Below are positions 55 through 64,000 of a DNA stretch of 64,000 bases, one piece after another; position 1 is the first letter of the stretch; every line of letters begins with the position of its first letter. This DNA comes from Tetradesmus obliquus (taxonomy: Eukaryota > Chlorophyta > Chlorophyceae > Sphaeropleales > Scenedesmaceae). The notes beneath the pieces were generated by a model. It had not been told where the DNA came from. It saw only the letters and a list, made by a program, of their open reading frames with translations, and did no database searches. The position numbers and the translations under genes were made by a program. The DNA lies in assembly GCA_030272155.1 (NCBI GenBank), contig CP126203.1:1302001-1366000 (forward strand), read 5' to 3'.

Positions 55-1930
55 GCATGCTGACCATCATGAGCGTGGCTCCCATCATCTCCGTGCTGCT
101 GACCAGCCTGCTGCGCAAGCCGGTCAAGCGCGCGGCAGTGGAGCTGGCGCGGCTGTCAAAGATGTCCCTGTCGCGCATGTCACGTCGCTCCAACACGTAC
201 GTGGTTTGCAGGGGATTTCTTGTGCTTTAGATACTAATTGTCCTGCTGAGGTTGAACTCTTGTGGAGCTGGCGCGGCTGTCGAAGATGTCCCTGTCGCGC
301 ATCTCCCGCCGGTCAAACACATACGTGGATTGCAGGTCTTTTTATCTTTGAAGATGTTCTTGAGCCGAGGTTACAGTTTTGTGGCGCTGGCACGGCTGTC
401 CAAGATGTCCCTGTCGCGCGTGTCGCGCTGCTCCAACACGTACGTGGTTTGCAGGGGTGTTCTTCTTTGACATTCTTTTGTTTGTCCACCTTGTTGTGGT
501 CTGAGATATGTTGTTTGCCGCTGAGGTTGCATGATTTGTGCAAGCTGGCGAGGCTGTCCAATTTGTCGCTCCCTCGCATGTCACGCCGCTCCAATACATG
601 AGCAGCAGCGCTTGCCATGCCTGCTTTGCTGTGTGTGTCGCCGCCATGCGTGGTGGGAACCGGTGGGACGTGACGCGCTATCGCAGCGAAGACCAAACAC
701 ATGTGCTGACACGGCTCATATGTCTCGTTTTCAACCCGCCACCTGTGCTGTCAGCCAGCAGTCAAAGAATCGCTGTCATTGACTTTGCTGCTGCACTAGC
801 AAAGTAACCCAGCATGCTTAATCACCATTTGTGATGTGGCACCGCACTTGCTCTGCAGTATCACCACCGCGTACAGCAATGCTGGCGAGTCAACTAGCAG
901 TCAAATGGACACTTTACTGATTCAAATGCTGGCAAAGATCCAAAACTGCTCATTATCAACAATCTGTGCTGCTGCACCACACTTGCTGTGCAGTATCACC
1001 ACCGCGTACAGCAATGCTGGCGAGTCAACTAGCAGTCAGAGGGACACTTTTACTGATTTAAATGCTGGCAAAGACCCAAAACTGCTCATTATCAACAATC
1101 TGTGCTGCTGCACCACACTTGCTGTGCAGTATCACCACCGCGTACAGCAATGCTGGCGAGTCAACCAGCAAAGAACAAACAGACAATGTCATTGACTTTG
1201 CTGCTGAGCTGGCAAAGTAACCCAACATGCTTACTCACCATATCCGCACCGCACTTGCTGTGCAGTATCACCACCGTGTACAGCAATGCTGGCGAGTCAA
1301 CCAGCAGTCAAAGAGACACTGTCATTGACTTTGCTGCTGAGCTGGCAAAGAACCCCAACTGGAGCCCCAGCCTAGGCAGGGCTTCACCTGGCCTTGAAAG
1401 CGTTGCGGCTGCATCAGGGGGACAGCTGGCGCGTGTGTCACGCGGCATGTCACGCACATCAAGGTGAGAGCACTGCTTGCAAGTGTTGAAGTGAGTCTGC
1501 CACTCACGCTACTCCTGGTGTACGTGGGGGTTCACCTCTGGTGGTACTTGCTGCTGGGAGTCACGCTGTAGCAATCTTGTGAAAAGTCGTGGTTAACGTG
1601 CGGGTCCAACATTGTCAGGCTCTTTGTGCCACAGCAGAGTAAGCATGCCGCCAACACGAGCCAGCTTGATATCAAAGCACAGCACAGTGCTTTGTGCCTT
1701 GCCACTCGTTTGGACAATGAACGATGCTCGTTGGCGCCTTGCATGCTGTGTGCAGGCCGCTGCAGCCGATTGGAGAGCACCCAGCGGAGCGATCAGCAGC
1801 AGCTGCAGCAGCCTCCGGGGAGTCAGCAGGCATCAGCAGGCTGGCTGTAGCATCCATGCCGCTGATGAGCTACAGCAGCCGGCAAGCAAGGGAAGCAGCG
1901 CAGGATGGCAGCAGCAGCAATGCGCAGTAG
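55..1930 (+). CDS. C-terminal part of a membrane protein, cut by the left edge
   Basis: Three exons join in phase: 55-196, 1266-1463 and 1756-1930, with stop TAG at 1928-1930. They give about 171 residues. The first exon opens with a hydrophobic segment (GMLTIMSVAPIISVLLTSLL) followed at once by the basic stretch RKPVKR. The tail is hydrophilic and Ser/Arg/Ala-rich (RLSKMSLSRMSRRSNT; later an Ala run and SSSNAQ). This reads as the last transmembrane helix of a transporter or channel plus a cytosolic tail with several possible phosphorylation sites. The helix followed by KPVKR loosely recalls the end of CHX/KEA-type cation/proton antiporters, but I do not recognise the family. Upstream exons lie outside the window. 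Both introns are lengthened by partial exon copies at 259-600 and 838-1210. A TGTAA motif at 2515-2519 could be the polyadenylation signal. The exon chain is well supported; the function is not. Confidence 0.6.
141..600 (+). repeat. Four tandem copies of an exon 3' edge plus donor
   Basis: The exon end with core GAGCTGGCGCGGCTGTC and donor ACAC/GTACGTGG at 141-214 recurs at about 259-337, 381-456 and 538-598. The copies diverge progressively and the last has lost the GT donor. The first copy is the one continuous with the exon that starts at 55. Confidence 0.8.
838..1312 (+). repeat. Four tandem copies of an exon 5' edge plus acceptor
   Basis: The block CTTGCTGTGCAG / TATCACCACCGYGTACAG, with the following AATGCTGGCGAGTCAAC, occurs at about 839, 967, 1100 and 1240. 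Spacing is about 128-140 bp. Only the last copy continues into the long open exon 1266-1463. The earlier copies are acceptor-bearing fragments within the upstream intron. Confidence 0.85.
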
Positions 1931-4165
1931 CTACGGTCATATTCAATGTGCTGTCCTGGCGTCAGCTGGTCAGGTGTGGCAGGAGGTGGGGAGGGTTGAA
2001 ATTGACAATGCCTGTGCAGTGCAATGAAAGAGGGTGCTGTCCCTCATCATCACAGGCACTAGCCTGCATTGATTGCTCAACTGCAAAGCACGGCTCGTGC
2101 TGTATGCGTCGCTGGCATGGTGTTTGTTCATAGATGTGTTGCGTGCAGCAGCTGTCCACCTGTTGAGTTCGGAGCCCCGCCTGTCCGCACCTTGAAATGG
2201 ATGCAGTGCATAGCAATTGCTGCGGGCTCTCCAGCTTTTTAGCCGCGGCAGGTGGTGGCAGGCAATCAGAAAAGCCCCGCAGCAAGCAGGACAGTGGGAT
2301 TGCCAGTGAACATGCATCTCATGTGGAACCTCACGCACATACACTGTATGCTGGATCTGCAGAGTGTTACCCTGTGCATTGTGTCTGCGCATTTACTGTA
2401 GTCGTCAGGGGCTGATCTACACGTAGCTGTTGCCGCATGTCTCTGCTGCAATGCCGGCACTTCTCCTTATGCAGCTAGCAGCAGCCATTTTGTTACGCTG
2501 CAGCCAGGCATGCGTGTAAGCTGCGCAGCTTGTGCTGTTGGGAGAGCTGGATTCTGACATTGATTTTTAGCAGAAGCCATTCATGCCGCATTCGGCCCTA
2601 GCAGCATAAGACGGGAATGCATCAGTTCCACACTAAAGCTTCACAGCATGTGGTAGTCGATGCGTAACATCAACGTGTAGCGGAAATTTCATACTAGCGT
2701 AGGAGCTGTGGTTGCACACGTCACACTGGAATCCTGAGGTGTAGGTGGTTGGCTGGTGTCTGTGTGCTGCGCTTTGTTCCAATACGCTCATGCAGACTCT
2801 GTAGGGTCGTCTTGCTGCTGTCACTGCTGTAGAGCTGTGCTCATGGCTTGCTGCACAGCCATGTGGGCACCAACGTTGACAATGGTGGGCGAGCCTTGCA
2901 TCTAGTTGTGCTGTCAATCCAGTGCATCACCTGCTGTAGTGCTCCTTCCTGTTGCCGCTCCATTGGGGCGCGGGGCCGATGGCTTTGATGCTATGACTCG
3001 ATGGGTAACATGGTGATGATCACCTGCTGTGTCCCTATTCCGGCAGTGTACCCTTATTCCGCATGACAGTGCGCCAACTTGCAGCAATGCATGATTGCCT
3101 GTCACAGGCGGCAGGGCTTGATGCTAGTGTGCTGCTGGCTGCTGCATGGTTCGGACGATGCCTGTTTACCAGCTGAGCCATGGCTGAATGGCCTTTGGCA
3201 CCGCGCCCATCTCTGCTGCATGGTTATGGTTGCGCCAGCTGTCTTCCAGGGGCGTATTTTGCATATGCTTGTTCCACAGGAGGTGCTTTGTGCACTGTTC
3301 ACAACTCCACCTTTCTGGTTGGTGAGCGCACTTTATCACAAACTTATCGTGCACGGGTTGGTTACTCGGCAGGCATTGCCAATCACTCTGTTACTCATTG
3401 ACTTGTGACTGCAGAGCTTCTTGTGTTTTGGGTGTTGGTGTGCCACAAAGTGTGTTGCGTCGGCTGCGACACTTGCTGCTGCGTGCTGGTGTGGCACACA
3501 TGCGAGGCATGCCAGCTGTGTGCAGCTTGCGTGTGACAAGGCTCGGCCTTCAGTTTTAAGGTCAGCAAGTCACGTGGTGTTGGTGGTGTGCATGTACATC
3601 ATCATGACTGCGCACTGTTGAAACTATGCTTGCGGACGTCATGCCATGGTGACTCCATAGCTCAGCAGGCGCATTTCATCAAACAAATCGTAATGAGTGC
3701 CTGTTGAAGGTTTGCTCTGGCAGCTGCAGGCTGCTTTGGCGACATGCAGGCAGTACAAGCCCTGCAGTACTACACTAGTACGCTGGCAGCAGCCTGCTGC
3801 ACTGCTGATGGGCACTGATGTGGCAGTGCTGAATACCCTCGACGAGGAATGCTTGAGATGATGAAAGAGGCTTTCATCAGTTGAAAGTGGCGCAGAAGGT
3901 ACGTGTTTGATCGTTTGCCGCAGGTTGACCGTTTACACCATGAACCTGGCTGGTTTGAACCGAAGCGCATGCCAGCATTTTATAACGCAGCCGCTGCCCT
4001 GGAATACAGTCCGAAATCCCCTTCACAGCAATATTGCCATTTGCTTGACTTTTGTTCAATCAGACACACACATTCGGCGACAGTCGCGACTCTGCTGCAA
4101 GGTGCCGTTTGTCCTGCCCGGTCAGCACAGCGTGTGCCTTAGTCCCTGCCACTTTTTTCAGTGCA
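1931..4165. other. Intergenic stretch without a recognisable gene
   Basis: Only short, unrelated reading frames are visible, and none joins its neighbours by phase. The stretch holds a TGTAA motif (2515-2519) and part of a dispersed repeat (about 2940-3016). Around 3780-3910 a donor-like AAG/GTACGT may belong to an unidentified 5' exon of the next gene. Confidence 0.5.
2940..3016 (+). repeat. Dispersed repeat fragment, copy 1 of 3
   Basis: The stretch beginning TGTTGCCGCTCCATTGGGGC and running on through a GGGCCGATGG core to GATGGGTAACATG is nearly identical to about 50930-51000. Its last part also occurs inverted at about 35045-35075 (GTTACCCATCAAGCCAT). It looks like part of a short dispersed element. 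No terminal repeats or coding region were identified. Confidence 0.6.
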
Positions 4166-5893
4166 ATGTTTGCATTCAGCCCTTTTTTAAATGACCCTGC
4201 AAGAGGTTCATGTGACCTTCAGGCAAAAGGGCAGGACCAGCAGGACAGAGCAGCAGCAAGTGAACAGGGCGCTGTGCAAGCAGTTGACGCTGCAAATAAG
4301 CATCTTCAGAGCTCAGTCAACGACGATGGCTCGCAAATATACGCGCATGCAGCCTACGTCCAGGCTCTCTTAAACCTGCTGTCTCTGCAGCTGCGGCAAA
4401 CTGAGAAGGCGGTTGCCTTAGCACAGCCAGACTCCAAGGCATGCGGCGCAGTTGCAGACACACGTGCAAAGCTTGAGGATGCGCTTACAGCAGCATGGCA
4501 GCTTTTGGACTGGCAGAGCACCAACAGGACTGAAGGTAAGCACGTGTAGCTGGAGTTGTATACAGCCAGCTAGAAGAATGCACTGCTGTAGCGAGTAAAC
4601 TCAGCTCACTGCTTAAGTCTCGCCCATGCCGCCTTACTTGCAGGAACGACGTCAGCAGCCACCTTCCAGTCCCTGTATGAGCACCCAAGCATCCTTGGAG
4701 CAATGCAGTTTTGCCGCTACTTCACATCCAACGCTGGCCTGACGCTGCTGCACAAAGCTGTTGGAGCAGACAAGCAACAGCCGCAGCAGCACCAGAACAT
4801 GCCCAAAAGCAGCAGCAGCAACATGCAGCTGCACCAGAACCAATCCGCGCAACAGCCGCCCCTGAGGCCCTTCACGCTTGTGGTGGACAGCAAGGGGACA
4901 GGTCATGTGGCAACTCTGCAGGCAGCACTTGACATGGCAGCAGCTGCTGCTGCGCAGTGTGCACAGCAGCACTACAGCAGCAGCAACATGGCGGACCAGC
5001 AGCCAGCATATGCAGCTGACAGCGGCAACACTACCTGCAGCCGCCGCAGCAGCATTGGTCAGCGGCCTGTGGCAGCTGAAAGCTGCAGCACCGATGGTGT
5101 GGATGTGCAGGGTGGCAGCGAGGACATCAGCGGCACGTGCAGCAGCGCGGCTGCATGCGACAACCTACTCATTGTGTTGCTGCCTGGCACCTACAGTGGC
5201 AGCCATGCGCTGCCAGGCAGCATCAGGCACATCACCATTGCCGGCATTCCTGGCAGCAAGACACTTCTGTGTGAAGCAGGCAGTGACCAGATATGCATCA
5301 CTGACGCCTCTCCCTCTAGCACCAGCAAGGGCTTTGTCCAGTCCCAGCAGCAGCAGGGCCTGCAGGAGCTCGATGCGCGCCTGCTGCGCCTGCAGCTGGC
5401 GCAGCGGCAGGCAGCAGCAGCAGCGCCGGGTCAGCTGCTGCGCTGCAGCTCCACCAGCACGGCACAGCAGCAGCAGCAACGCTCGCCGCCAACATGCCTT
5501 CTGTCCTGCCCGTTTGGGGTTGAGTCGCTGAAGCTGCAGCACCTGCACTTTGAGCTTGCAGGAGCCTCAGAGGCCTCAGGTGCAGCGCCGCAGTGCCAGC
5601 GCGTGCTGATGCGACAGGAGAATGCACTGGCTAGCATTGGAGCAGCACCCAGCAGCAGCAGCAGCAGCAGGTTTGGCACGAAGTTGGGCCGCAACCCAGG
5701 TGCTAGCAGCAAGGACTGCGCAGACAGCACTGCAGAGGAGTCAGCTGAGGGTGAGGATGAGCCGTACTGCATTAGGGTTTGTGCTGGCAGCGAGCTGCGT
5801 ATGGAGTGGTGCGAGTTTTCTGGGGGTGCTGGTGGTGTGCTGTCTGAGGCTGGTGCACTGGTGGGCGCCATGCAGTGCAGCTTCCACCAGTGA
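4166..5893 (+). CDS. Right-handed beta-helix (pectin-lyase-like) repeat protein
   Basis: Exons 4166-4535 and 4644-5893 join in phase (GAA G/GA ACG) for about 539 residues. The N-terminal third is helical and Gln/Ala-rich. From about residue 195 the pattern FTLVVDSKGTGHVATLQAAL, then LLIVLLPGTYSG, HITIAGIPGSKTLLC and a Cys-containing strand series (LRMEWCEFSG; GAMQCSFHQ) is typical of parallel beta-helix proteins related to pectin esterases/lyases and F-box PbH1 proteins. No catalytic residues could be assigned, so it may bind rather than cleave. The start at 4166 is the first ATG in the open frame; an upstream exon is possible. The end is ambiguous. The frame stops at 5891-5893, but CACCA/GTGAGG at 5889 is a good donor repeated in three later copies. 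A spliced end at an exon near 6678 (acceptor TCTGCAG) is in phase and would stop after about 14 residues. TGTAA motifs lie at 6348 and 6423. Confidence 0.6.
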
Positions 5894-6290
5894 GGCTAGT
5901 TGCTGTGCTGTCATTTTCTGGGAATGTGCTGTGGGGTGCTGTCTGCATGCTGGGGGTGTGCTGTCTAAGGCTGGCGCAATGGTGGGTGCTATGCAGTGCA
6001 GCTTCCACCAGTGCGGCTGATTGCTGTGCTGCCAGTGTCTGGGATTGTGCAATGGGGTGCTGTATGTATGCTGGGGGGTGCCGGGGGTGTGCTTTATGAG
6101 GCTGGTGCAATGGTGGGTGCCATGCAGTGCAGCTTCCACCAGTGAGGCTGCATGCTGCGCTGTCAGTGTCTGGGAATGTGCTATGGGGTGCTGTATGTAT
6201 GCTGGGGGGTGCCGGGGGTGTGCTGTCTGAGGCTGGCGCGATGGTGGGTGTTATGCAGTGCAGCTTCCACCAGTGAGGCTGCTTGCTGCG
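5822..6290 (+). repeat. Four tandem copies of the beta-helix exon 3' edge
   Basis: The segment encoding GGVLSEAGALVGAMQCSFHQ, with its CACCA/GTGAGG donor, occurs at about 5822-5900, 5949-6027, 6071-6148 and 6210-6287. Copies 2-4 lack an obvious acceptor directly upstream. They are therefore intronic or 3'-flanking copies rather than independent exons. Confidence 0.85.
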
Positions 6291-7496: not shown

Positions 7497-10400
7497 TCAG
7501 CGCTGGCCCTGGCCGTTTGCTGGTGCTGCTGCAGCAACGTGCTGCGCAGCCCCACCTTGCCTGACACCCACACCAGCAGCCTTGCCTGCAACAGCAGCAG
7601 CAGCAGCGCCACGTCCAACTGCTGCATTCTCCTTATCTGCCTCCTGCTCTGCATCCTGCTCCATCCCTGCACCATCACCAGCCGCCTGCTGGCCTTCAGC
7701 AGCAGCAGCAGCTGCTGCATCAACCTGCTGCTGCTGATGCTTGCTTGAGCGCCTGATGCGGCCAGCCCTGCCGCCGCGCTGTGCAGCAGTGGCAGCTGCT
7801 GCTGCCGCTGCCTTGGCCTTTGTTGCCTCTGCCAGGGCCTGGAATAGCAGCCGCATGAACTGGGGCTTCATGGCAGGGGCAAACGTGAAGGGCTCCTGCA
7901 AGCAGCAGCAGCAGCGTAAAAAGAGTAGTGTGGTTTGCAAACCATGCGGCAACTTGAAGGGCTCCTGCAAGCAGCAGCAGCAGCAGCAGCAGCGTAACAG
8001 AGCAATGGTTAGCAGACCATGAGGCAACTTGCTACTCCTTGTAAGCACACACACTGGAGGGTGTACAACTGCTGTAAGCACTGCAGCCTTGGCTGCCAAG
8101 GCTCGGGGCACATGCAAGCCAGGCGTAGCAGCACAACCGGCCAGCTGCTGCTCATGTCACAAGCCTGGCAGGCAGCCCTGCACAGCCCGCGCATGCAGCA
8201 TGCCCGCTGATTTCCAGCTCCATCATCTCACATCCAACCACTGCTAGGCAGCCACAGTGCAGGCCTTACCAAACCAGCACTAGCAGCCGCTTGAAAGAGA
8301 ATCTGGTGCTGCTGCCTCCATTGACTTCGCAGAGCCGGCCACAGTCACATAAGGAATTATCAGCGTACTTATCAACTCAAATAATCTACAGTACATGTTA
8401 CTAACCAGCCGCCTCACCTTGAGGAATTCTGGCAGCGCTGGCTCCGCGCAGCCCATGCTGAGCTTCGCCGACGACAAACCAGTTCCATCAGGCAGCAGCC
8501 CCGAACAATAACAGCTGCAGAAAGTGATTGCAGAAGACAATCAATGCTTGGCCCATACCTTGAGGAGTTCTGGCAGTGCTGGCTCCGTGCAGCCCATGCT
8601 GAGCGGCACAAAGCTGACCTCATCATCCACAGCCCCTCCCATCCTTAGCACACCCGGCAACAACCACAAAACGCATCAGCAGCGGTGCAGGCCCAAACCA
8701 AAATCAGCAAGCCAATGCCAACTCCTTCACTGCTCACCTTGAGGAACTCTGGCAGTGCCGGCTCCGCGCAGCCCATGCTGAGTGGCGCGAAAAATACAGC
8801 AATGCAGGACCAACCAGCCATGATCAACTATTGCGGCGCTAAGCAGCCGCCTGACCTTGAGGAACTCTGGCAGTGCCGGCTCCGCGCAGCCCATGCTGAG
8901 TGGCACAAAGCTGACCTCATCATATCATCCACAGCCCCTCCCATCCTTAGCGCACCCGGCAACAACCACAAAACACATCAGCAGCGGTGCAGGCCCAAAG
9001 CACAACCAGCAAGTCAATGCCAACTCCTTCACTGCTCACCTTGAGGAATTCTGGCAGTGCTGGCTCTGCGCAGCCCATGCTGAGCGGCACAAAGCTGACC
9101 TCATCACCCGCGGCCAGTCCCATCCGCAGCACACCGTGATAGTAACCAAAACAACATCAGCACACCAGCAAACAGCAGCAGTGCAGGCCCCAACCAAAAT
9201 CAGCAAGTCAATGCCAGTGCTTCCACTGCTTTACCTTGAGGAATTCTGGCAGCGCTGGCTCCGCGCAGCCCATGCTGAGCGGCACAAAGCTGACCTCATC
9301 ATCTGCACCCTCCGCGCCCTCATCACTGCTGTCATAGTCGGCATCATCTGCATCCGCTGCTGCTGCTGCAGCAGCGCCGCCCTGGGGTGTGCCGTAGCTG
9401 GTGCTGCTGGGTTGCGGCGTTGCTGCTGTCATGGTGGACATGGCGGGGCCCAGCTGGAAGGTGAAGCCAGTTGCACTGCAAACAGGTGGAGATGAGACAC
9501 AGAGGCAGCTGATGTCAGCATGGCGTTGGTGCTCAGTAAGCCCAGTCATGTGAGAAGGGGGCAACAGCAATATGGGACATGAGCTCGGCGCGGCCCAGCT
9601 GGAAGGTGAAGCCGGTGGCGCTGCAGGTGAGAAGGCAGCAGCAGCAAGTGGGATGTTAGGGCGTGCGCTTACTTGCTGTGACTGCTCACTACCAATCAGG
9701 TGCCTACAACTGCATGTCATAGCAATCCACGCAGCGCCTGGTAGTCCATACCAAAGTAGATAGACGCCGCCACCACCGACATGCCAAAACAATCCAATCC
9801 ATCAGCACCTGTGCTTGTACTTAATGTTGCCTCCATCCATCAGCTGCCCACAACTGCACATCACAGCTATCCTCACAGCACCTAGCAGTCCATGTATCAA
9901 AGTATTTGAAACACCGCCACCACCAGCATGTTTGCCGCACCTGTGCTTGTACTTGATGTTGCCTCCATCCAGCAGCTGCGGGTCAAAGTCGCACAGGTAG
10001 GACAGCGGCAGCAGGTGCTGCGTGGCCCGCGGGGTGCTGCGCCGCGCAGAGCTGCAGGCATGAAGGGCAGCAGCAGCAGCAGCAGCAGCGGCAAAGGGCA
10101 AGGCTTGGTGAGCAGAGCTACCTGCGTGGCAGTGGCTTGCAAAGCACTCTGCCAGGCTGCTGCAAGCATGTTCTGGACAGCTCAGGCTGGTGCAGGCACA
10201 GCAAGCTGGACAGCCACAGTCAGATAATGACAATCCCCGCCTGGCCAACGGCGTTCAGCCTTGCCATCATTGCCGCAAATTTTCCTGCAAGTTTCCTGCA
10301 AGCTTCCTGCAAGCACTTGCAAAACAAGCAAGCACGTCCAGCTGCTGCCTCACCTCCTGCCGCCTGGCGGCGTGGGCCTGGTGCGCCTGCCAGACAGGCG

Positions 10401-10919: not shown

Positions 10920-13900
10920 TGCAGGTGGGGAGAAGAACCCTGCAAAGCCAGCCTCTGGATCTGCTGCCGCAGCTGCTGCTGCCTCTATGCCATCAGCTGG
11001 CCCCTGCCCTGTTGCAGCTGCGAGCCCTGCCAGGGCAGCAGCAATCTTGTCGATCGGCAGCCGAGCAGCAGCAGCGGCGGCAGCCTCTGGTGTGGCGACT
11101 GGCGTGGTGTGTGGGGCTGCGCAGGCCTCATCGCGAGGTGTCTGTGGAGTGCGGCCTGAGAACAGCAGCGGCAGCAGCAGCAGCACCATGCACAATCAGC
11201 AAGGCATGCGTGAGGCAGCAAGGACCTAGCAGCTGCCGCCTACCCACTCTGGTTCCAAGCTGTGGTGCCCAGCGGTCGTTGCAAGTAAGCAATGAACAGC
11301 GCATGCACCGCTGCAGGAAGATCGTGCAGAAGCATGTCAGCAAGCTGCGCACCTGGTGAAGCACCGGCGCGCTGCTTGGCAGCTGGTGAAGCAGCTCCCG
11401 CTGCTGCTGCTGCTGCTGCGGCAGGTGCAGCCATCTCCTCAGCTGCACCCTCAGCAGCAGCAGCAGCAGCACCCGCCGGCACCTTCTCAAGCATGGGTGA
11501 CAGCCCTTCCTTCATTGCTGCTCGCAGCTGGTCAATCTGCTGCAGCCGAGCCTGGAAGCGGATCAAGCTGCCTCCGCTGGAGGCTGGGCTGTGCAGCTGC
11601 TGCTGCTGCTGGCGCTGGCGCAGGGCCGCAAGGCGTGCAGCAGTATCAGGCGCCCCGTATGCAATGGGAGTGGAATGCGGGGCGGGAGGCAGCATTGGGG
11701 ACATCATCACAGCGCCAGCACCGCCAGTAACAGCAGCAGCAACAGCAGCACTTGCTGCAGCTGCCAGCTGCTGCTGCTGCCGCACGCCTGCAGCTGTCAC
11801 GCCACCCCCCACATTTCCGCCGCCAAACACAAAGCTTCCGTTGTCGCTGTTCTGGCCGCCGCTGCCAGCTGCAGCCGCCTCATAGCCGCCTGGCGGCAGC
11901 ATCTGCCCCTGCTGCTGCTGCTGCTGCTGTGCAGCATAGCCCAAGCGGCCTGTGGTACCTGTCTGGCCTGGGGAAGAAGGGAAGCAGAACTCCCCCACAC
12001 TGCCAAAGCCTGCTGCAGCAGGCGCAGCAGCAGCTGCTGCTGCTGCTGCTGCTGCTGCACCCCCTGCAGTGCCACCGGCAGCCGATGCAGCAGCAAACAT
12101 GAAAGCGTTGATGCCGCCAGGTGTGTTGTATGGCGCCCTCGCCAGCGCCACCCGGCCTCCAGCTGCAGCAGCACCTGCTGCACTCTGCAGTGAGATGCCG
12201 CGCTGTGTTTCTGCCTCACCAGCAGCAGCAGCAGCAGCAGCAGCACCAGCAGCAGCGGCGGCATTGCCTGCGCGCAGCACTAGGCCCCGAACTGGGCTTG
12301 AGCCGCCACCCCTAGAGCCGTCAGTGGCAGTTGAGCCAGACACCATCAGCAGCTGCCTCCTGATTGTCCCTGAATCACTGCCCTCTGCTGCTGCCGCTGC
12401 ATCGTCAGAGCTGCCGGGCAGGGGCTGCAGCGCTGCTGCGGCCAGATCAGCTGGCACAGCAGCAGTGCCAGCGGGATACATGAAGGCGTTGATGCCCCCT
12501 GGGGTGTTGTACTGCAGCCTGGACACCCTGCCACCTGCTGGTGCGGCTGCTGCTGCTGCTGCCACCACGCGCCCTGACCCATCGCTCACTTGGCCATCCT
12601 CCTCAGCTGCTGCTGCTGCTGCTGGTGGTGCTGTTGCGGTGTCGGCTGCAACGCAGGGTGTGGGGAACTGGCAGCCGATGCCAGGAGATGGCACTGGCGG
12701 CGGTGCTGGCGTAGGGAACTGGCAGCTAGCTGACAGGCGGCCTGGCAGCGCAGGCGTCTGCTGCACGGCAGCAGCCTGTGCTGCTGCTGCTGCTGCTGCC
12801 TCTGCTGGCAGCTCTGCCGCATCCGCTGCCTCTGCACCCTCAACCTGCAGCGACAAGCGAAGGACAACATTCTGCTGTTATGGCACTAGCCGCAGACAGA
12901 TGCGCACAGATGAAAGAACTGGCATGGTGCAGCATACTGCATGGATATCAACTGCAAACGCGTGCGCTGGGCTGGTTTGTTTGCGTTAGCACAAGCGGCT
13001 AAGCAGCTACCCACCACCGAAGCTGCAGCAGCCAGCGCGTGCAGCAGTTCAAGCTGGAACTGCAGCACTGCAGCTGTTGCATGGCCATGCTTGCTTCAAG
13101 CATACATTATTGTCTCAGGATTTGCTCACCTGCACTGCTGCATCCACTGCGTCAGGGCGCGCCCCAGCCTCCAGCAGCCGCTGCTTCAGCTCAGCAACCT
13201 CGGCTTGCAGCTGCCAGCAGAAACAATGGTTGTGATACCATGGCACACAGCGGCATGCAAGAAGGCAGCTTCAGATATGTATGGTGAAAGTGGTGTTAGC
13301 GGCCACATGTTGGCGGGGGTTGCAGTTGCAAAAGCGGCTGCTATATTGGCAAAGTTGGCGCGCGGGGTGCGTTGCTGTATGCACATGTGTGAAACACTGG
13401 CTGACGCAATGCCTCAGTGCCAGCACCTCGGTGCAGTAACATGCACTCTCTCACACCTGTGCCAGCGCAGCATCCTTCTCCAGCAGTGCTGCGCGCGCAG
13501 CGATGTTGCTGTCCTGCAGCTGCTTGATGTGCCGGGCTGTCTCAGGTGCGCGCGCGGACGCTGCCGCCTTGCGCTGCGCCTCCGCCTCCTTGCGCCAGTG
13601 CTCTGCCAGCTGGCGCGCCTCCTGCAAGGTGCAAAGTTCACAACATATAAGATTCAGAGGAAAGTTGGCGGATGTGTGTGTGGCTCTGTGGGCGTGGGGC
13701 CTCCGCCTCCGTGCGCCAGTGCTCTGCCAGTTGGCGCGCCTCCTGCAAGATGCCGTTTCAACACAACAACAGCAACTGAGTAAGGCACACGTTCTGATGA
13801 GCCTTGGCGTGGATGTGATGCCTGCGGCAAACTCATGCCAGCTTGCACGCCTCTTGCAAGGCACCCGCGCAAGTGAATTTCTGTTGGTGACATGTGTGGC

Positions 13901-14380: not shown

Positions 14381-14421
<41 letters not shown>

Positions 14422-14465
14422 TGAGGTCAGCTCATCATACATCGCGTGCAGCCGCCGGTACTCAG

Positions 14466-14502
<37 letters not shown>

Positions 14503-14550
14503 CCAGTTATGCGAGCTCGTCGAACATCGCTTGCAGCTGGCAATACTCCG

Positions 14551-14590
<40 letters not shown>

Positions 14591-50065: not shown

Positions 50066-50103
<38 letters not shown>

Positions 50104-50632
50104 ATCCAAGCGGGCAAAGCGTGTTGTGATGTGTAAAGATATGCAGGGAACACAATTTGCAAAGCACATTGCAACATATTGCTCACTTTGCTTTGGGCAG
50201 GGGCTGGGGCTGCTGGGGAGTGAGTATGATGCAGCAAGGCAGGGGCTGCTGCAGGACGGTGGTGAGGAGGGTGAGGAGCAGCAGCAGCAGGGGCAGCAGG
50301 GGCAGCAGCAGGGGATGGAGGAGAAGCAGTTGGAGAATGCCAGGAAGGGTTGGGAGGACCTGTTCAACCTGCTGTGATGTGTAAAGAGTTGCAGGAATAT
50401 ACTTTGCAAAGCACAATGCAACATATCGCTCACTTTGCTTTGGGCCGGGGCAGGGGCTGGGGCTGCTGGGCAGTGAGTATGATGCAGCACGGCAGGGCCT
50501 GCTGCAGGGGGATTAGGAGCAGGGCGAGGAGCAACAGCAGCAGCAGGGGCAGCAGCAACAGCAGCATGGGATGGAGGAGAAGCAGTTGGAGAATGCCAGG
50601 AAGGGTCTAGAGGACCTGTTCAACCTGCTGTG
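49500..50632 (+). pseudogene. Collapsed direct copy of the helicase 3' half
   Basis: Three copies of the VATPDMAL exon end lie at about 49510-49578, 49645-49709 and 49808-49840. A decayed motif-II copy lies at about 49865. A good one at 49964 reads DLRVIVVDEMDALLGAYPAS and continues through HRATPSTSSS. It then jumps, within ~70 bases of unrelated sequence, straight to the C-terminal tail (LGLLGSEYDAARQGLLQDGG...LENARKGWEDLFNLL, stop ending at 50377). About 380 residues of helicase domain 2 are missing. A further copy of the tail follows at about 50445-50632 with an in-frame TAG. It cannot make a working helicase. Confidence 0.85.
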
Positions 50633-50639
50633 ATGTTTT

Positions 50640-52294: not shown

Positions 52295-53600
52295 CAACAG
52301 CAGCAGCAGCAGCAGCAGCAGGGCTTGAGCCAGGCCCCTGAGCAGTCACATGCCGTAGGCTACAGCTACTGCCGGCAGCAGCAGCAGCAGCACCAGCAGC
52401 AGCAGCATGAAGGTCTCGTTGGCATTGACAAACGGAGGAGGGTGCACAGCAGCACGCGTGTGCGTGAAAGACTTGCAGAGCTCTCCAGTCAGCATGAGGT
52501 GAGCTAATTCTGCAGTGTGCCTATGTGTGCGGCTTTATGGTGTTGGAGCTAGCCAGCCGCCACAGCATATGCCACATACCTTGCCTTGAAGCGCAATATG
52601 TGGTTGCCTGCCAGCCTGGTGTGTGTGCTGTTTTAGGTCCTGCTGCGATACTTGCAGCCTGGTGGCATCTGCTGCACCAACATACCTTGCCTTTCACCGG
52701 ACTTTGTGCCTGTCTGCCTGCCTGCATGCTCTGTGTGTGCCTTCAGGCGCTGCTGCAGCAGTACCGGCAGCTGGACCAGGAGAACAGCCAGCTGCAGCAG
52801 CACTACTGCCAGCTCTCACAGCAGTACGATGCCTCACTGCCGGTGCTGCTGGCACTGCAGGCACAGCTGCACCCTCTGCACAGCTTCGTGGCCCCAGCAG
52901 CAGCAGCAGATGCAGATGGTGCTGCTGCAGCAGCTGGGACGTCAGCAGCTGATGACATGTCACTAAGTGCAGCGGTACGTGGCAGCAGCAACAGCAGCAG
53001 AACTCCAGCAGAGGTGCTGGCGGAATTCATGGCCGGCTGTGAGAGTGCGGCACGCATGTATGCTGCTGCTGCTGCTGCTGGCAGTGACCCCACACAGCTG
53101 CTGCAACAGCTGCATGAGCTGCTGCCACAGTTTGCTGCACTGCCCGAGCAGCAGCAGGAGTGTGTTGCTGCAGCTGCTGGGGGTGTGTGGGGCAGCCTTG
53201 TGCAGCAGCTGTCTGTGCTGCTGCCTAAGCTAGAAGCCCTGCCTGCAGACCACCCACTGAAGCAGCCTGGCATAGCGCTGCAGCAGCAGCAGCAGCAGTT
53301 GGAGCATGTGCATATGCAAGAGGAGTTTCAGCAGCAACAGCAGCAGCAGCAGCTTGCATTGGCTGCGATGCAGCCAGAGCTCGCAGTCATGCCGCCACCC
53401 CCACACCAGCTGCAGCTCCAGCAGCAGGGGCACAACCTGGCAGCAGCAGATGCAAAGGCCGTTGCAGAACCAGAAGCAGCAGATCCTATGCTGTCTGTGG
53501 CAACTTCAACAGCAACAGCAGGCAGCTTCACCCCGGCTGTGTCTATGAACCCGTTTGCAGCTGCAGCAGCAGCTGGATGGGATCAAGAGCTGCTGCCATC

Positions 53601-53656
<56 letters not shown>

Positions 53657-53764
53657 GCACACCCCACCTTGCTGCATTGCCATCTGTGCAGAAGTCCCCA
53701 GTAGCAGCGGCAGCAGCAGGTTTGGGGCACAACAACGCGCTCAAGCGTGACAGGGCGACAACAA

Positions 53765-53797
<33 letters not shown>

Positions 53798-54070
53798 TGG
53801 ATGCAGGCAGTGAAGCAGAGCTCATCCGCCTGCTGAGCAGCAACCTCTCGCTGTCCCTGGAAGCTCCATCTGCAAAGCAGCTGAAGCTAGCTCTAGGCAG
53901 CAGCCAGGCAGCTGACGGCGGCAGCAGTGAGGACTATTTTGCGCATGCTTTCAGCTTCTCTCTGCAGCTTCCCAGCAGTTTGAGTGGCATGAGCGTTCCA
54001 GGGCTGAGTGGGCTGTTAAGTCCCGCAGTGACAATGAGCGGAGATTGTGCTTTCAACAGCAGCTTGGAGA

Positions 54071-54117
<47 letters not shown>

Positions 54118-54583
54118 CCAGAGGCTTGCATGCCAGCTGCAGATGGGTCAGCAGGCGGTGAGGCATGCATCACAGGTGTGTTATCACCTGCTGCAGCTTT
54201 GTTTGGTGGTGCAGCAGATGTCGCCGCAGTGTTGAGCAGCAGCTGTACTGCTAGCAGGGAGGTTGCACTGCCAGATTTGGAGCTCCTGCCATCTGCAGGC
54301 AGTACAGATGCAGTACAAAAGGCAGTTGCACTGCAGCAGATGCTGCAGGAGCTGTCAGAGCAGCTGCTGGCTGCATGTCCGCTTTTATTGTACCGCATGT
54401 TATGGCAGTACAACAACTGCCAAGCTGCCGGCTGTAGCAGCAAGCAGCGGCAGCAGCAGGCACAGCAGTGTACAGGGGCAGAGGCGGGTGGATTGAGGGG
54501 CACAGCAGCAGGCCCGGATGTGCGGGCATCACTGTGTGATGACCATCAACAGTTCGATACAGATGCATATGCAACGGCTGTAA

Positions 54584-54643
<60 letters not shown>

Positions 54644-56675
54644 GTGCAGCAGCTGTTAATGACAACCAGCTTGCTGCTGCTCCTTGCTCAATGCATTGCA
54701 GCAGCAGAACCAGCGCTGAACCAGCACAGTGGCAGCAAGCTATCGGCGCAATGCACCTGTCAGAGCAGCAGCAGCAGGCGCTGCAGCAGCTGCTGCAGGA
54801 GGCTGCTGCCAGCCATGCTGTTAATAACATACAGCAGCAGCAGCTGGCGGCTGCACTGGCAGCACAGGTTGCCGCAGAGGACAGCTGCGGCAGTGCTGCA
54901 GCAGCAACATGCGGCAGCGCTGCGCTGCATTTGGAGGAGATGGAGGGAACAGCTGAGGCAATGCAGGGCAGCTGCTGCAAGGACTGGGCTGTGCTGCAAT
55001 TATTGCTACAGCAACTGGTGGGCTCCCAGGTGCGCTGATCCTGCCTGTAGTTTTCTTGTGTGTAGTTTTCTTGTGTTGTGTAGCTTTGTGTCAGAGGTGC
55101 TCTGCATGTTGCAATGACAGCCAGTGGCCAGCTGCTGCAGGGTTTTGGCGGTGTGCTGCAGCAGCTACTGCTGCGGCTGTGGGGCTCCCAGGTGCGCTGA
55201 TTCAGTCTTCCATAGAGGTTATCTGCTGTCGTGTTTTGCATGTTGGCCAGCTGCTGCAGGGATTTTGCTGTCCTGCAGCAGCTGCTGCTGCGGCTGTGGG
55301 GCTCCCAGGTGCGCTGATCCTGTTTTCTTTTGGGCAAACGTGCAGTGTCAGAGAGTTTTAATTTCAAGTTTGCATGTTGGCAGCTTATGCAGGGACCTGG
55401 CGGTGTTCTGCAGCAGCTGCTGCAGCGGCTGTGGGGCTCCCAGGTGCGCCAATCCTGTCTTGCATAGAGGTTACTTGCAGCTGTGTTTTGCTTGTTGGCC
55501 AGCTGCTGCAGGGACTTTGCTGTGCTGCAGCAGCTGCTCCAGCGGCTGCTGGGCGCCCAGGTGCGCTGATTCAGTCTTCCATAGAGGTTATCTGCTGTCG
55601 TGTTTTGCATGTTGGCCAGCTGCTGCAGGGATTTTGCTGTCCTGCAGCAGCTGCTGCTGCGGCTGTGGGGCTCCCAGGTGCGCTGATCCTGTTTTCTTTT
55701 GGGCAAACGTGCAGTGTCAGAGAGTTTTAATTTCAAGTTTGCATGTTGGCAGCTTATGCAGGGACCTGGCGGTGTTCTGCAGCAGCTGCTGCAGCGGCTG
55801 TGGGGCTCCCAGGTGCGCCAATCCTGTCTTGCATAGAGGTTACTTGCAGCTGTGTTTTGCTTGTTGGCCAGCTGCTGCAGGGACTTTGCTGTGCTGCAGC
55901 AGCTGCTCCAGCGGCTGCTGGGCGCCCAGGTGCGCTGATTCAGTCTTCCATAGAGGTTATCTGCTGTCGTGTTTTGCATGTTGGCCAGCTGCTGCAGGGA
56001 TTTTGCTGTCCTGCAGCAGCTGCTGCTGCGGCTGTGGGGCTCCCAGGTGCGCTGATCCTCTCTTGTGTAGGGTTCACGTGCAGTGTCGGAGAGTTTCAAT
56101 TGCAAATTTGCATGTTGGGCAGCTGCTGCAGGGACCTGGCTGTCCTGCAACACCTGTTGTAGCTGCTGCTGCCATGATGCTAAGGTGTGACAGCATTCAG
56201 CCATAAAGGCCCCTGAAGCATGTTCCAGCCAAAAACAGCGAGGGCAGCTGTTCTGGCACCTGTTGTGCATGCTGCAGTGTGCACCTGACACTTGCTCAGC
56301 GCCTGTGGGCTCCATGTCTGCATGTGGCTTGCACGGCTTGACCAAAAACAAAGAAAACCAGGGCAGCTGTCGTGCACGGCGAAGCACGGCGCGGCATCTG
56401 CTGTGCACGCTGCACGCTGCACACTGCAGCCTGAGTGCCTGTGTGCTCCATGCATGCATATATGCATGTAACTTGCACGGCTTGACCAACCACAAAGAAA
56501 GAAAACCAGGGCAGCTGTCGTGCACGGCGCCGCATCTGCTGTGCATGCTACAGTGCCTGTGGGATCCATTTATCCATGTGACTGATATGGCTTGACCAAC
56601 AGCATCCTGCAAGCCCCTTCCTAGCACTGCTGTCACCTGCTGTGCCCTGTTGCTGACGTTGCCTGCTTTTCTGCC

Positions 56676-58651: not shown

Positions 58652-59630
58652 ACTGCTGCACCAGGCCGTGTCTGCAGCAACAGCAAAGAAGAAGACTGTC
58701 AAATGCCCCACGTCATGCGATCCAACCAAAACCTGCTCAGGCCAGACCTTTGATAAGTCCGGCCAATCCTTTGGCGGATATGGCACCAGCAGCCTCGGCA
58801 CCCCTGTAAGCATATGCGCCCGCTTTTTGTTGAAATATGTCACCAACCTATGTGATGTACAGTGCTCCTGCATGTGGCAAAACACGCTGGGCGGATTTTT
58901 GGTGGATGTGGCACCAGCAGCCTTGGCACTCCTGTAAGCATCTGCGCTTGCTATGTTGGACATATTTCACCAAACACCTGTGATGTACAGTGCTCCTGCA
59001 TGTGTACAGTGCTCCTGCATGTGGCAGAACAGGCTGGCCGGTCTTTTGGCGGATATGGTACCAGCAGCCTTGGCACCCCTGTAAGCACAAGCACCCGCTT
59101 TGCTGGAAATATTTCACCAAAGCCCTATGATGCACAGTGCTCCTGCATGTGGCAAAACAGGCTGGCCGGTTTTTTGGTGGGTATGGCATCAGCAGCCTGG
59201 GCACTCCTGTAAGCATACACCAGTGTTAGCTTTGCAGGAATACATTGGATTCAGATTTTTTTGGACCCTATGTTGTGCAGTGCTCCTGCATGTGGCAGAT
59301 CATGCCGAGACGGTCAGTGTAGTAGTTAAGTGGTGGAGGCAGCACCTGCAGCAGGCAACATAGTGCAAGCGCAGCAGGCTTGGGAATGCTTCCCTCTGAC
59401 AGCATTCAGCCACCAGCTAATCGTGCAGCAGTAATGCCATGAAGTCACAGGCTCAGAGTGACTGTCAAACATGTGTTGAGCTGATCTTACTCCCCTGGTA
59501 GGAGATCCCAGCGTTGTGCTCAACAACAGTGCATAAGCACATGTCTTGCCAGTCATGCCCGCTGCCATACAGCAGGGCTATGCTGCAGCTGGCCTGCTGC
59601 TGCTCCAGCTCACGGGCGCTGCTGCACATA

Positions 59631-59706: not shown

Positions 59707-59834
59707 AGGTTACCAGGGCCTCGCGCAGGAGCCAGTTTGTCAGCTACTGCGAGATGGACCAGTGGCTTGGGGTGAGTGCTGCAAGCCAGCCGCAGATACA
59801 CATGCGTCCTTTTGCATGCAGCAGACGGCACCAT

Positions 59835-59866
<32 letters not shown>

Positions 59867-60103
59867 TCCTGCCAGCATTTTGGCCACTAGACATGCACTG
59901 GCATGTGGCTTGGGGTGAGCCCTGCAAGCCAGCCGTAGTTATTAATTCATCCATTTAGATGCAGCAGACAGCAGCAGACAGCAGCAGCAACAGCAGCAGC
60001 AACCGCAGTTCCTGCCAGCTGTTTGGCCACTAGACCTGCACTGGCATGTGGCTTGGGGTGAGCGCTGCAAGCCAGCCGCGTTTGTAAATGCATCCTTTTA
60101 GAT

Positions 60104-60157: not shown

Positions 60158-63100
60158 GCAGCAGCAGAGCCAGCGGCAGCGGCAGCGGCACCTTGTTGCT
60201 GCACATTCGCCGCTGTCATCATCGTACCCCGTGCATGTACTTTCCTGTTTTTTTGCAGATACCTGATGGCTTCGTAAAGACGATGAAAGCCGTTGACAGG
60301 TACTTCACGGCCGTTGAGAAGTTTGCCAACGCCACGGCTTTCCTGGTAAACCAGACGTCACCATACCTAGTGAAGCCGCCTTGTGCCAAGGTAGGTCCCA
60401 AGCATGAACTAAAATCTAGGTTTCCCGGTTTCAAGGTTTAGGGTGCAGATGTTTTGGGCAGGTACTTGATAGCCGCTGAGAAGTTTGCCAGCACCTCTGC
60501 TTTCCTGGTGTATCAGACGGTCACCATACCTCATGAAGCCGCCGTGTGCCAAGGTAAGTCCCAAGCACGAATCAAATGTAGGTTTCAAGGTTTAGGGTGC
60601 ACTTTTTTTGGGCAGATACTTCACAGCCGTTGAGAAATTTGCCAGCGCCTCTGCTTTCCTGGTGAACCAGACGTCACCATACCTAGTGAAGCCGACTTGT
60701 GCCAAGGTAAGCCCCATGCATAATTCATTTCAAGGTTTAGGGCTCTGTTTATTCGACAGGTACTTCAAAGCCACTGAAGCCGCCTTGTGCCAAGGTAGGC
60801 TCTACAAGGCCCCATGCATGATTAAGGTATAGGGTGTAGGTTTCTCCCTTGTGTCCTTGTGGAGCAATGCAATGTATTGTCATTAGGCGCTTGGGCCGTG
60901 AAGCCATCTACCTTGTATCTGCCCATGCTGTACAGCTCCTCAACTCCCTACACACATGATCATATCTGCCGCTGCACTGCAGGTGTCTGGTGAGACGCGC
61001 AGTGACTGCGTGCCGCTGTCGCAAAACCTGATCAGCCAGCTGACTGCAGGCAAGCCCATCACGTCAGCCATAGACCTGGCCACGTTTGTGGGAGGTGAGG
61101 GCATGCACGCAGGTTGAGCAGAGGGTTTAGCAGAGTTTCATAGGAGTTTGCAGAGGGTTTAGCAGAGGGAGCAGCTTAAGCGGAGGGACTAGTGTGTGCC
61201 GCTGTCGCAAAACCTGATCAGCCAGCTGACTGCAGGCAAGCCCATCACGTCAGCCATAGACCTGGCCACGTTTGTGGGAGGTGAGGCTGATTTGTGAGCA
61301 GAGGCGCGTTTCTATGCAGGCAGGCGCAACAGAGGGTTCAACAGAGAGACTGTTGAGCAGAGGCAGCAGGTCTAGCAAAAGGACTGTTTTCAAGGCCTGG
61401 AAGCAGGTTAGCCGCGTGTGTGTGAGGTTGGTCACAGCGTGGCGGTCGCGTTGCAATTCCCATGCATGTCGGCACAGGCAGGCAACCCATCACGTCAGCC
61501 ATCCACCTGACCACCTTTGTGGGAGGTGAGGCTGCCTTGAGGCCTCAGGGCTAGAAAATTATACAAATTATAATTAAGGGACCTTAAGCAGAGGAAATGT
61601 TACTTGAGACGGCATGTACGCAGGTTAGCTGCAGATGTGCGAGGTTGTTTGCAATGTGGTTGCAGCGAGCATGTATGGCAGCAGAGGCAGGCAAGCCCAT
61701 CACTTCAGCCATCAACCTGGCCACATTTGTGGGAGGTGAGGCTGACCTGTCAGCAGAGGGGCTGTTTAGCAACTGAATTAGCAGAGGGTAAAGTAGCAGC
61801 GGCAGGTTCAGCAGGTGTGTTTTCAAGGCCTGGAGCAGGTTAGCCGCGGGTGTGTGAGGTTGGTTGCAGCGTGGTTGCAGCGAGCATGTATGGCGGCACA
61901 GGCAGGCAAGCCCATCACGTCAGCCATTCACCTGGCCACGTTTGTGGGAGGCTGAGCCTGGTGCGAGTTCAAGACCTTCAGGAGCAGATGTGTTGAAGAT
62001 CCACAGGACAATAGCTGTGGCACCTACAGCCTCACTGATTCAATTGCACACCATAGGTTTTCTGCATTGCTTGAACAACATGTGCGGGACACTCACCGGA
62101 TGTCTGCCTGCTGCCTTTCCTTCCTTGTGCCGCTGCCTTGCAAAAAAGCAGACCTCTTCTGTGGCAAGGAGCTTGAGGAAGGTGAGCAGGAGGCAGCCAG
62201 GGTACATAGTGATGTTGCTTCATATATGCAGCTCACCCCGTGGAGACGCATTGTACAAAACACATGACAGCATAGCTGTACCAAGCATGCCCTTGCAAAG
62301 ATGATTGCATTCACGCTTGCGGCGCAAGGTCATGCACATCTGGTTCTCATCTCTTTCACAACCTTTTGCATAAGAGTGCGCAGCATTTCCAAGCACCAGT
62401 GGCTGCTGCTGCTGCTGCTGCAAAGTCTTTGTTGCACTCCTGCTCCTGCTCAGCTTGCCGCTGACGCTGGTGCTGCTTCTCCTGCTTGCCCTGCTGCTGT
62501 TGCTGCTGCCACTGCTGCCGCTGCTGCCGCTGCTGCCGCTGCTGCCGCTGCTGCCGCTGCAGGCCAGAAGAAGATGATCCCGAGCTTTGATGACATAAAG
62601 AATCAGGGCACCTTTGTGATCGAGCTTCTAGGCATAGACCCGGCTGTGAAGAAAGCACAGAAGACATGTGCTAAGGGAGAGGACCTGCGAGCACCCATCC
62701 CAAGCAGCGTCACAAGGCAGTTCGGTACCATGGGGCAAGTCCTCCAAAACGTGAGTGTGGGCTGAAGAACTTGCTGCAGCAGCAAGGTTGTTGCAGCACA
62801 GTGCTTTCTGGTAGCCATCATTTGGGCACCTGTCAGGCTGTCTCTGGCTTATGTCTCCTGGGCCTCACAACACACTCCCTGCAGCACCTCTTGCCTCCCT
62901 CCTGGGCCTGCTGTGCTGCAGCTGGACATCATCGCAGGGCTTGCTGTGCAGTATGCACAAAAGGTGTCAGGCATATGCGAGGCCATCCCACCGGAGTACA
63001 AGGACCCCCCTGTCTCCTATGTCAGAGCTGCGCCTGTCAAGTGCTTCAGACCATTCCTGGACAGGTAATTACAAGCTTCAATGGTAGCAGGTGTGAAGGC

Positions 63101-63864
63101 GCATGGGGTATCCTTATCGTCACCCCCCCCCCTCCCTTAACTTTCGCGGGTAGCGAGTTTTAACACACCACGCGTAGCTCATTCATTCATTCATTCATAC
63201 AAGCTTCTGTAATCATGTGTTGAGATACTAGATGTCCTTGATGGTGCTTGAGAGATGGCAGTATGTACTGGTCAACTGATCTGGTGCTGCCAAGCTGATC
63301 TGTAAAACATGGGGGCAGATCCCAGTCTGAGTTACACATTGTCATTGTTGTCGCTGCTGCTGCTGCTGCTGCTGCTGCCACAGGGCCGTCAAGTACGTGC
63401 AGGTGATCAACATGGAGCTGCAGAGCGTCAGCGGCTTCCTGGTGTCTGTTGAAAACGACTTCATCCTGGCTGCGCTGCGCGGCAAAGGGCTCACTGCGAA
63501 GGACCTCCCAAAAGACTTCCCTGCTTCTAGGGCCGCAGCATGTAGGGCTGGCTATGGCGCTGCTGGCGGCAGCGGCAGGAGGTAAGGCGTGCCGGTGATA
63601 GACTTTCCGTTGTTTTACTTGCGGTACAGAGAAACTGATAATTTTTTTTGCGGAACAGGGCACCAACCAGTCAAAAATAAATAAACATAAATTTGAGGTA
63701 TAGGGCGCCAACCAATCAAATGTTTCTACTTCACATGCCTGCTGTTTCTTCGTGTGTTCCTTTCTTTATTGCTGCTGGACTAATGCACGCCTTTACTTTT
63801 GCGCAGGCTGCTGCAAGCTGGCTTCAAGCCCCAGCCGACTGACATGACCCAGTACCACAACCAT
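57825..63864 (+). CDS. Unrecognised secreted protein (10+ exons), open at the right edge
   Basis: Ten exons join in phase: 57825-57914, 58665-58805, 59709-59771, 60259-60390, 60983-61094, 62152-62181, 62563-62750, 62922-63064, 63384-63581 and 63807-63864. Total is 385 residues so far. The N-terminus is a signal peptide split over two exons (MKKRAAHGSSHGG, then VLLWAIVLLLVLELHPS, then AVSAATA). The mature part has scattered Cys (KCPTSCDPTKTC; CVPLSQNLI; DLFCGKEL; KTCAKGED; SGICEAIPPEY; VKCFRPFLDR) and helices, with an N-glycosylation site (ANATAF). I do not recognise a domain. The acceptor CACCAG at 58664, behind a (CTG)n run, is chosen because phase and signal-peptide cleavage both fit. An alternative TCTGCAG acceptor 13 bases on would break the frame. 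Introns 2-5 carry tandem partial exon copies. The last donor (CAT/GTACAT) is weak; a partial copy of exon 10 begins near 63946. Confidence 0.7.
58765..59218 (+). repeat. Four copies of secreted-protein exon 2 3' edge
   Basis: The exon end encoding FGGYGTSSLGTP with donor CCT/GTAAGC is intact at 58805. Copies end near 58933, 59081 and 59211, each with TGTAAGCA donors and shared intron sequence (ATGTACAGTGCTCCTGCATG). Confidence 0.9.
59755..60078 (+). repeat. Three copies of exon 3 3' edge
   Basis: TGGCTTGGG/GTGAGTGCTGCAAGCCAGCC at 59763 onward recurs at about 59908 and 60050, each followed by a (CAG)n stretch. These are donor-side copies in the intron. Confidence 0.8.
60259..60800 (+). repeat. 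Four copies of exon 4 3' part
   Basis: The exon RYFTAVEKFANATAFLVNQT...PPCAK/GTAGGT (60259-60390) is followed by copies at about 60461-60555, 60616-60707 and 60758-60797. The second copy carries an indel that breaks the frame. The third is nearly intact (ASAFLVNQTSPYLVKPTCAK). Confidence 0.85.
60983..61955 (+). repeat. Five copies of exon 5 3' edge
   Basis: The exon end AGKPITSAIDLATFVG/GTGAGG at 61094 recurs at about 61196-61281 (long copy), 61478-61530, 61690-61740 and 61903-61951. Each has shared intron sequence (GCAGAGG, TTAGC.GC..GTGTGTGAGGTTG). Confidence 0.85.
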
Positions 63865-64000
63865 GTACATACATCCTATCATGTACATGTACGTTTCCAT
63901 GCTCGTATGCCGCTTACCCATGCACACACTGATGCTTATGCGCAGGCTGCTGCATGCTTGCTTCAAGCCCTAGCCAGCTGACCCATGCACACTCATCTCC

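Follow-up and report, generated by a model that had tools for sequence, protein, structure and literature searches.

Arrays of partial exon-edge copies inside the introns of Tetradesmus obliquus

Exon-edge arrays in the window

The genome of Tetradesmus obliquus comprises 104,662,953 bases in 17 contigs, and the 64-kb stretch analysed here (the window, whose positions serve as coordinates throughout) contains roughly ten gene loci with predicted boundaries, among them a DEAD-box helicase gene and a gene matching PF10988. In seven of these loci, introns hold arrays of partial copies of the adjoining exon edge, and an initial annotation of this DNA, which had spoken of six of eight genes, was thus about right. 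Its central observation, that such arrays are real and numerous, is borne out: a junction pipeline, which searched each exon edge for copies within 1.5 kb, found 60 intronic partial copies at 23 predicted exon edges (11 acceptor, 12 donor), and two donor arrays that it missed, at the exon ends 5889 and 58805, were added by eye. Four of the 23 edges, which belong to a helicase fragment (49.6-50.3 kb) or to a tandem array near 55 kb, are less certain.

The arrays are seen most clearly in the DEAD-box helicase gene (27.1-34.5 kb), to which the annotated protein P0004 (OEZ86_009006 of Tetradesmus obliquus) maps exon by exon, with 100% identity over 54% of the query exon. The intact exons are followed by P0004, by P0006 from another assembly and by homologues of Monoraphidium, Chlamydomonas and Parachlorella, and arrays stand at six of the 12 internal exon edges, with 1, 3, 3, 3, 6 and 6 copies. 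Exon 28706-28842 is preceded by acceptor-edge copies (28299-28706, plus strand; copy edges 28299, 28443 and 28564) and followed by donor-edge copies (28842-29512, plus strand; copy edges 29092, 29338 and 29512, the last lacking GT), while exon 29931-30127 has a single acceptor-edge copy (29748-29931, plus strand; copy edge 29748). At exon 31456-31593, an acceptor-edge array (30759-31456, plus strand) consists of six copies, partly as near-intact head-to-tail units of 116 nt, and a donor-edge array (31593-32397, plus strand) likewise holds six copies, two of them without GT. The last helicase exon again carries acceptor-edge copies (32619-33022, plus strand; copy edges 32619, 32718 and 32839). 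The annotated helicase proteins use the outermost pair of splice sites and not the copies, even at exon 31456-31593, where three donor copies outscore the true donor (8.3, 8.1 and 8.1 versus 7.7). A fragment of a second copy of this gene spans 49506-50636, its final part being 93% identical to the helicase, and it has edge copies of its own (49506-50514, plus strand) that are less certain.

Exons were placed by a purpose-written, self-trained hidden-Markov gene finder, seeded with window exons that are mostly supported by homology, so that outside a few genes the exons, like the gene boundaries, are predictions trained on the same DNA. It converged on the donor CAG/GTGAG and the acceptor TTGCAG/G and found most of the exons in the helicase and PF10988 genes, yet it called copies as exons too, and 38 lower-scoring copies were struck from the predicted set; gene finders in general may be misled by such copies. 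An earlier version, which placed too many exons and drifted to CAG acceptors, was replaced. When nine gene models from the sample stretches described below were compared with Pfam, four of them after copy-like stretches had been removed by hand, eight scored above the family cut-off and one just under it (TPR_14, 23.4 versus 23.5).

The remaining arrays of the window were located by the junction pipeline unless marked as found by eye. At its left end, predicted exon 55-196 is followed by a donor-edge array (196-597, plus strand; copy edges 320, 439 and 597) with a period of 119 in Tandem Repeats Finder (TRF), and predicted exon 1266-1463 is preceded by an acceptor-edge array (859-1266, plus strand; copy edges 859, 994 and 1130; TRF period 136). 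The exon ending at 5889, which the pipeline called terminal, has the first of the two donor-edge arrays found by eye (5889-6272, plus strand; copy edges 6010, 6141 and 6272). On the minus strand, predicted exon 9235-9475 is flanked by a donor-edge array (8418-9235; copy edges 9040, 8856, 8738, 8559 and 8418) and an acceptor-edge copy (9475-9620; copy edge 9620), and predicted exon 9941-10051 by one donor-edge copy (9809-9941; copy edge 9809). Also on the minus strand, predicted exon 13457-13621 has acceptor-edge copies (13621-13958; copy edges 13742 and 13958), and predicted exon 14271-14381 has a donor-edge copy (14040-14271; copy edge 14040) as well as acceptor-edge copies (14381-14809; copy edges 14466, 14639, 14730 and 14809) that sit within a TRF array of period 88 (14343-14931).

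All further arrays are on the plus strand. The PF10988 gene has donor-edge copies after the exon ending at 21864 (21864-22256; copy edges 22044, 22156 and 22256), and exon 22722-22818 has one acceptor-edge copy (22603-22722; copy edge 22603). Edge copies at 55162-56046 lie within a higher-order tandem array (55125-56168) with a 369-nt unit and 94% matches between copies, where the exon calls are uncertain. The second donor-edge array found by eye follows the exon end 58805 (58805-59208; copy edges 58933, 59080 and 59208), and donor-edge copies follow the predicted exons 59709-59771 (59771-60057; copy edges 59914 and 60057), 60259-60390 (60390-60794; copy edges 60553, 60706 and 60794) and 60983-61094 (61094-61950; copy edges 61280, 61525, 61735 and 61950), the nearest copy of the last being identical to it across 85 exon bases. 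At the window end (63796-63982) there are two acceptor-edge-like copies, either of which could be the true exon.

The gene at 38320-44386 has ten predicted exons and long introns, and the junction pipeline found no edge copies in it; one of its introns contains about 80 imperfect TATTC units (41823-42223). Elsewhere in the window, at 35577-37228 and 53464-55179, two related genes with about 79% identity are inverted relative to each other.

Frequency of edge copies

The genome-wide statements made here refer to 250 kb in 25 stretches of 10 kb, together with the window. Twenty of these stretches were taken at fixed positions, one or two per contig and regardless of content, and five later ones (L022-L026) lie outside the training set of the gene finder, with copy-like exons left unfiltered. 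A self-comparison, which the initial annotation had proposed as a check, detected local direct duplicates in all seven window pieces and in 16 of the 20 sample stretches, but in none of 27 shuffled pieces (20 from the sample, seven from the window).

In the search at exon edges, copies on the intron side were found at 20/183 acceptors and 25/168 donors in the sample (45/351 edges) and at 11 of 46 acceptors and 12 of 46 donors in the window (23/92 edges), whereas the opposite side had only eight such edges in the sample (two acceptors, six donors) and nine in the window (five and four), and the same search with reverse-complement sequence returned no copies in either. Copies thus lie mostly on the intron side, the polarity that the initial annotation had described. 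Pooling two detection methods and the five later stretches, copies occur at 86 of 565 edges; beyond the window the figure is 63 of 472 (about 13%, 25 stretches), and the five stretches outside the training set contribute 18 of 110. At least one edge with copies was present in 19 of the 25 stretches, on 16 of the 17 contigs, and six stretches had none; the frequency varies among stretches beyond chance (chi-square 42.6, 25 degrees of freedom). Extrapolated from 250 kb of predicted genes to the whole genome, roughly 26,000 edges would carry copies. A search against Rfam gave no match, and a scan of viral contigs for arrays in relatives found no relative.

Whether exon edges are special depends on the unit that is counted. 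Counted by array, 88 of 114 touch the predicted edge of an exon, compared with 47.1±5.2 (maximum 62) in 300 random shifts within a stretch and 52.4±4.9 (maximum 66) in 300 random placements within gene spans, a permutation test that rests on the exons of the gene finder. Per base, duplicates in the sample cover 12.5% of intron interiors, 4.6% of intergenic DNA and 3.4% of exon interiors, and they lie over 11/187 acceptor edges and 17/171 donor edges, which is not above the intron interior. The expectation, set as a check by the initial annotation, that copies are commoner at edges than elsewhere thus holds for arrays but, counted per base, not against the intron interior, and we prefer the array-level test, because within each array a single copy sits at the edge and the rest lie inside the intron. 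The enrichment need not mean that duplication is specific to edges, since anchoring to a constrained exon keeps copies recognisable for longer; it may reflect this longer visibility rather than preferential duplication.

Structure of the copies and their splice sites

Most intron-side copies cross the junction (136/156), and they are spaced at a median of 130 nt (quartiles 119-161.5, n=132), or 133 nt (120-173, n=180) in the pooled set, with no bias towards multiples of three (58/66/56). The copies are partial and one-sided, each with one splice site, as the initial annotation had stated. By eye, many copies appeared to have the opposite splice site at their far end, yet such sites are not above random expectation. 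Of the 114 arrays, some hold whole predicted exons; among 83 arrays these were one class member and three mixed cases. The initial annotation explained the polarity of the arrays by slippage or unequal exchange with selection for one intact exon, but tandem geometry alone suffices, because any tandem duplication that crosses a junction leaves its partial copies on the intron side.

As had been suggested, the copies provide many decoy splice sites, with GT retained in 78/94 and AG in 75/86 pooled copies. When copies were found from the exon interior alone, GT was kept in 60 of 75 (with a further three GC) and AG in 62 of 74. The median scores of copied sites come close to those of the true sites (donor 6.07 versus 6.45, acceptor 6.84 versus 7.44), and 69 of 153 scored copies equal or exceed the true site of their own array. 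Among donor arrays, the true site ranks first in 32 of 40, where 15.5 would be expected, and among acceptor arrays in 19 of 37, where 14.5 would be expected, although the donor excess is partly circular, because the gene finder used the same scores.

Differences between copies show a strong third-position bias (155/164/367 by codon position), which could be taken for coding constraint on the copies. We rejected this interpretation, since the bias is mostly inherited from the exon: differences common to several copies are distributed as 33/31/91, whereas changes private to one copy are distributed as 92/84/118 and are near neutral, with 185 nonsynonymous changes (206.9 expected in the absence of selection), 100 synonymous changes (78.1) and 9 stops (9.0). 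Distal copies are flat by codon position (42/49/50). The copies hence look like non-coding relics, which took on the history of the exon and then decayed nearly as non-coding DNA.

Origin of the copies

The exon part of the copies and their intron flank differ strongly in preservation. Across the last 14 exon bases, identity between copy and exon ranges from 0.73 to 0.96; at GT/AG it is 0.85-0.88, and about 7-10 bases into the intron it drops to 0.40-0.51 (donor) or 0.45-0.61 (acceptor). Ungapped similarity extends into the intron by a median of 6 bases at donors and 9 at acceptors. Constraint on the exon but not on the flank should by itself give some step at the junction. When copies were compared with each other, all of them being intronic, the exon part was nevertheless better preserved in 27 arrays, worse in two and equal in one. 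Recognisable flank homology was found in only 29% of pairs (43/149), compared with 64-87% in simulated neutral duplicates of the whole unit to which a similar detection was applied, and it is also low where exon divergence is small (4/9 and 4/22). By another threshold, 72 of 180 adjacent pairs have flank homology and the rest retain residual similarity, as weak flanks outscore unrelated ones (p 1.4e-9 and 8e-8). The spacing is the same with and without a recognisable flank (129 versus 135, p 0.39). Together, the residual similarity and the equal spacing indicate that weak flanks derive, through decay, from a unit of the same kind, and the residual similarity speaks against copies that were born without a flank. 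Pairs from the same locus were excluded from both flank analyses, and they inflate the acceptor null of the exon/intron ratio used below.

Based on these observations, we propose that a junction-spanning unit of about 130 nt, including about 55 nt of exon, would be duplicated in tandem again and again. Its partial copies would land on the intron side, leave with the spliced intron and hence be tolerated, and the intron would lengthen. The intron parts of the copies may then diverge fast, while the exon parts stay close to the exon, owing to constraint on the exon itself and probably also to renewal by recombination (gene conversion or unequal exchange) among the copies and the exon; edge copies would thereby stay recognisable for a longer time than duplicates that are entirely intronic. 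Such recombination with the exon is suggested by exon parts that are too well preserved relative to their flanks. To the full explanation, repeated junction-spanning tandem duplication with intronic relics whose exon part is renewed by recombination, we assign a probability of about 0.58. The slippage or unequal exchange across the junction invoked in the initial annotation is retained in so far as tandem duplication is concerned, but slippage followed by neutral decay is insufficient to explain how well the exon parts are preserved.

Several findings weigh against the proposed renewal. With an extreme indel rate and no detection step, simulated flank homology falls to 37%, although this costs 7.3 exon gaps per 100 where 1.2-1.5 are observed. 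Exon 31456-31593 of the window encodes Leu at its donor edge, whereas four of the six copies of that edge and the protein of the other strain have Phe, and these copies can thus not have been overwritten since that change. No conversion tract was seen, and the tree of the helicase copies gave no resolved branching. In addition, inner copies retain some third-position bias (36/27/54), and where the flanks of a pair are recognisable, neutral decay fits with no need of renewal (exon/intron ratio 0.69-0.80).

The last point belongs to a simpler model, in which ordinary tandem duplication takes place everywhere and is followed by neutral decay only, the edges standing out through exon constraint. 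Near-intact head-to-tail duplicates do exist (at least four, a lower bound that misses arrays merged by BLAST into longer, weaker alignments such as 31103-31511), and changes private to a copy are near neutral, as this model would have it; the shortfall of flank homology relative to the simulations, which persists at low exon divergence, makes it unlikely as the complete account. A copying process specific to exon edges, with copies that end a few bases beyond the splice site, would explain both the abrupt end of similarity and the 68 patch-like pairs (46 at exon edges) that stand beside the few near-intact ones, yet it should leave neither residual similarity in weak flanks nor the same spacing with and without them, and we regard it as hardly credible.

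Function is very unlikely, either as alternative exon parts or as decoys under selection at the RNA level, though an RNA-level role keeps some probability. The largely retained splice sites, the well-preserved exon parts and the third-position bias seen before the differences were split would fit such a role, but stops are at the neutral expectation, no second splice site per copy exceeds chance, spacing ignores multiples of three, and the splice dinucleotides are preserved no better than the adjoining exon part. To an assembly artefact we give almost no credit: although repeats of this kind are prone to mis-assembly, the copies are about 11% off the exon in their exon part and far more in the spacers, and they recur across stretches and contigs.

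Intron length and splice-site choice

Predicted introns with edge copies are longer (n=59, median 592 nt) than those without (n=194, median 288.5 nt) and make up 42,186 of 118,931 intron bases. The edge copies would be a concrete and countable source of intron length. Of the intron growth proposed in the initial annotation, the association with longer introns stands, whereas duplication as the cause of the extra length is plausible rather than observed. The mean intron of T. obliquus has been given as 462 nt, compared with 230-302 nt for a further four green algae (PMC5966456, Table 1), but as another paper lists 491 nt for Volvox (PMC4378016), the T. obliquus value is not extreme.

The arrays also offer a natural experiment on splice-site choice. 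As the copies all lie inside the intron, a rule that joined the closest donor and acceptor over an intron would select copies, and the use of the outermost pair in the helicase, as read from the annotated proteins, points to probable pairing across the exon (exon definition). True splice sites would then be chosen by more than local consensus, with pairing across the exon as the obvious candidate. The Volvox paper, in contrast, infers intron definition for short algal introns (PMC4378016). More speculatively, and with considerable doubt on our part, exons might be permanent cores of small satellite arrays that re-seed and correct their copies, with intron growth throughout the genome and tens of thousands of decoys of nearly full strength tolerated via cross-exon pairing despite short introns.

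Comparison with known systems

In whole-exon tandem duplication, including mutually exclusive exons, exon sequence is likewise repeated beside an exon, but the copies in T. obliquus are partial, have one splice site and lack coding constraint. In protists and algae, introner elements likewise multiply intron-related sequence on a large scale. They form a dispersed family, whereas the one array searched genome-wide here, in a search that skips very common words, matched its own place only. Minisatellites consist of homogeneous head-to-tail units of about 10-100 bp, and the arrays differ from them in spacing (about 130 nt), in copy number (mostly 1-6) and in their heterogeneous spacers. Tandem repeats in Chlamydomonas reinhardtii and Volvox carteri are dense in introns and towards the intron ends (PMC3887541), but they have units of 1-50 bp only, and the accessible text of that study draws no link to copies of exon edges.

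Tandem duplication is an accepted route of intron gain (PMC3443670). Intron gain of the AGGT type also changes exon-intron structure by local tandem duplication, but there an exonic segment supplies both splice sites, whereas the copies described here have one site and lie inside an intron, with no excess of the opposite site at their far end. The arrays resemble tandem duplication across a junction, for which adjacent, direct, junction-spanning copies are characteristic and are what was found here; homology of the copied intron flank to the original one, also to be expected, is recognisable in only part of the pairs. In the RNA-dependent RNA polymerase (RdRp) gene of potato, such a duplication over an intron-exon boundary copied an acceptor and the exon edge (PMC4974935). 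That was a single event that made a new intron with support from RNA sequencing, whereas T. obliquus has repeated arrays at about 13% of the sampled edges, within existing introns and with no evidence of new ones. We found no report of pervasive exon-edge arrays in open-licence full texts; single instances of duplication over such a junction are on record, and the scale seen in T. obliquus appears to be new.

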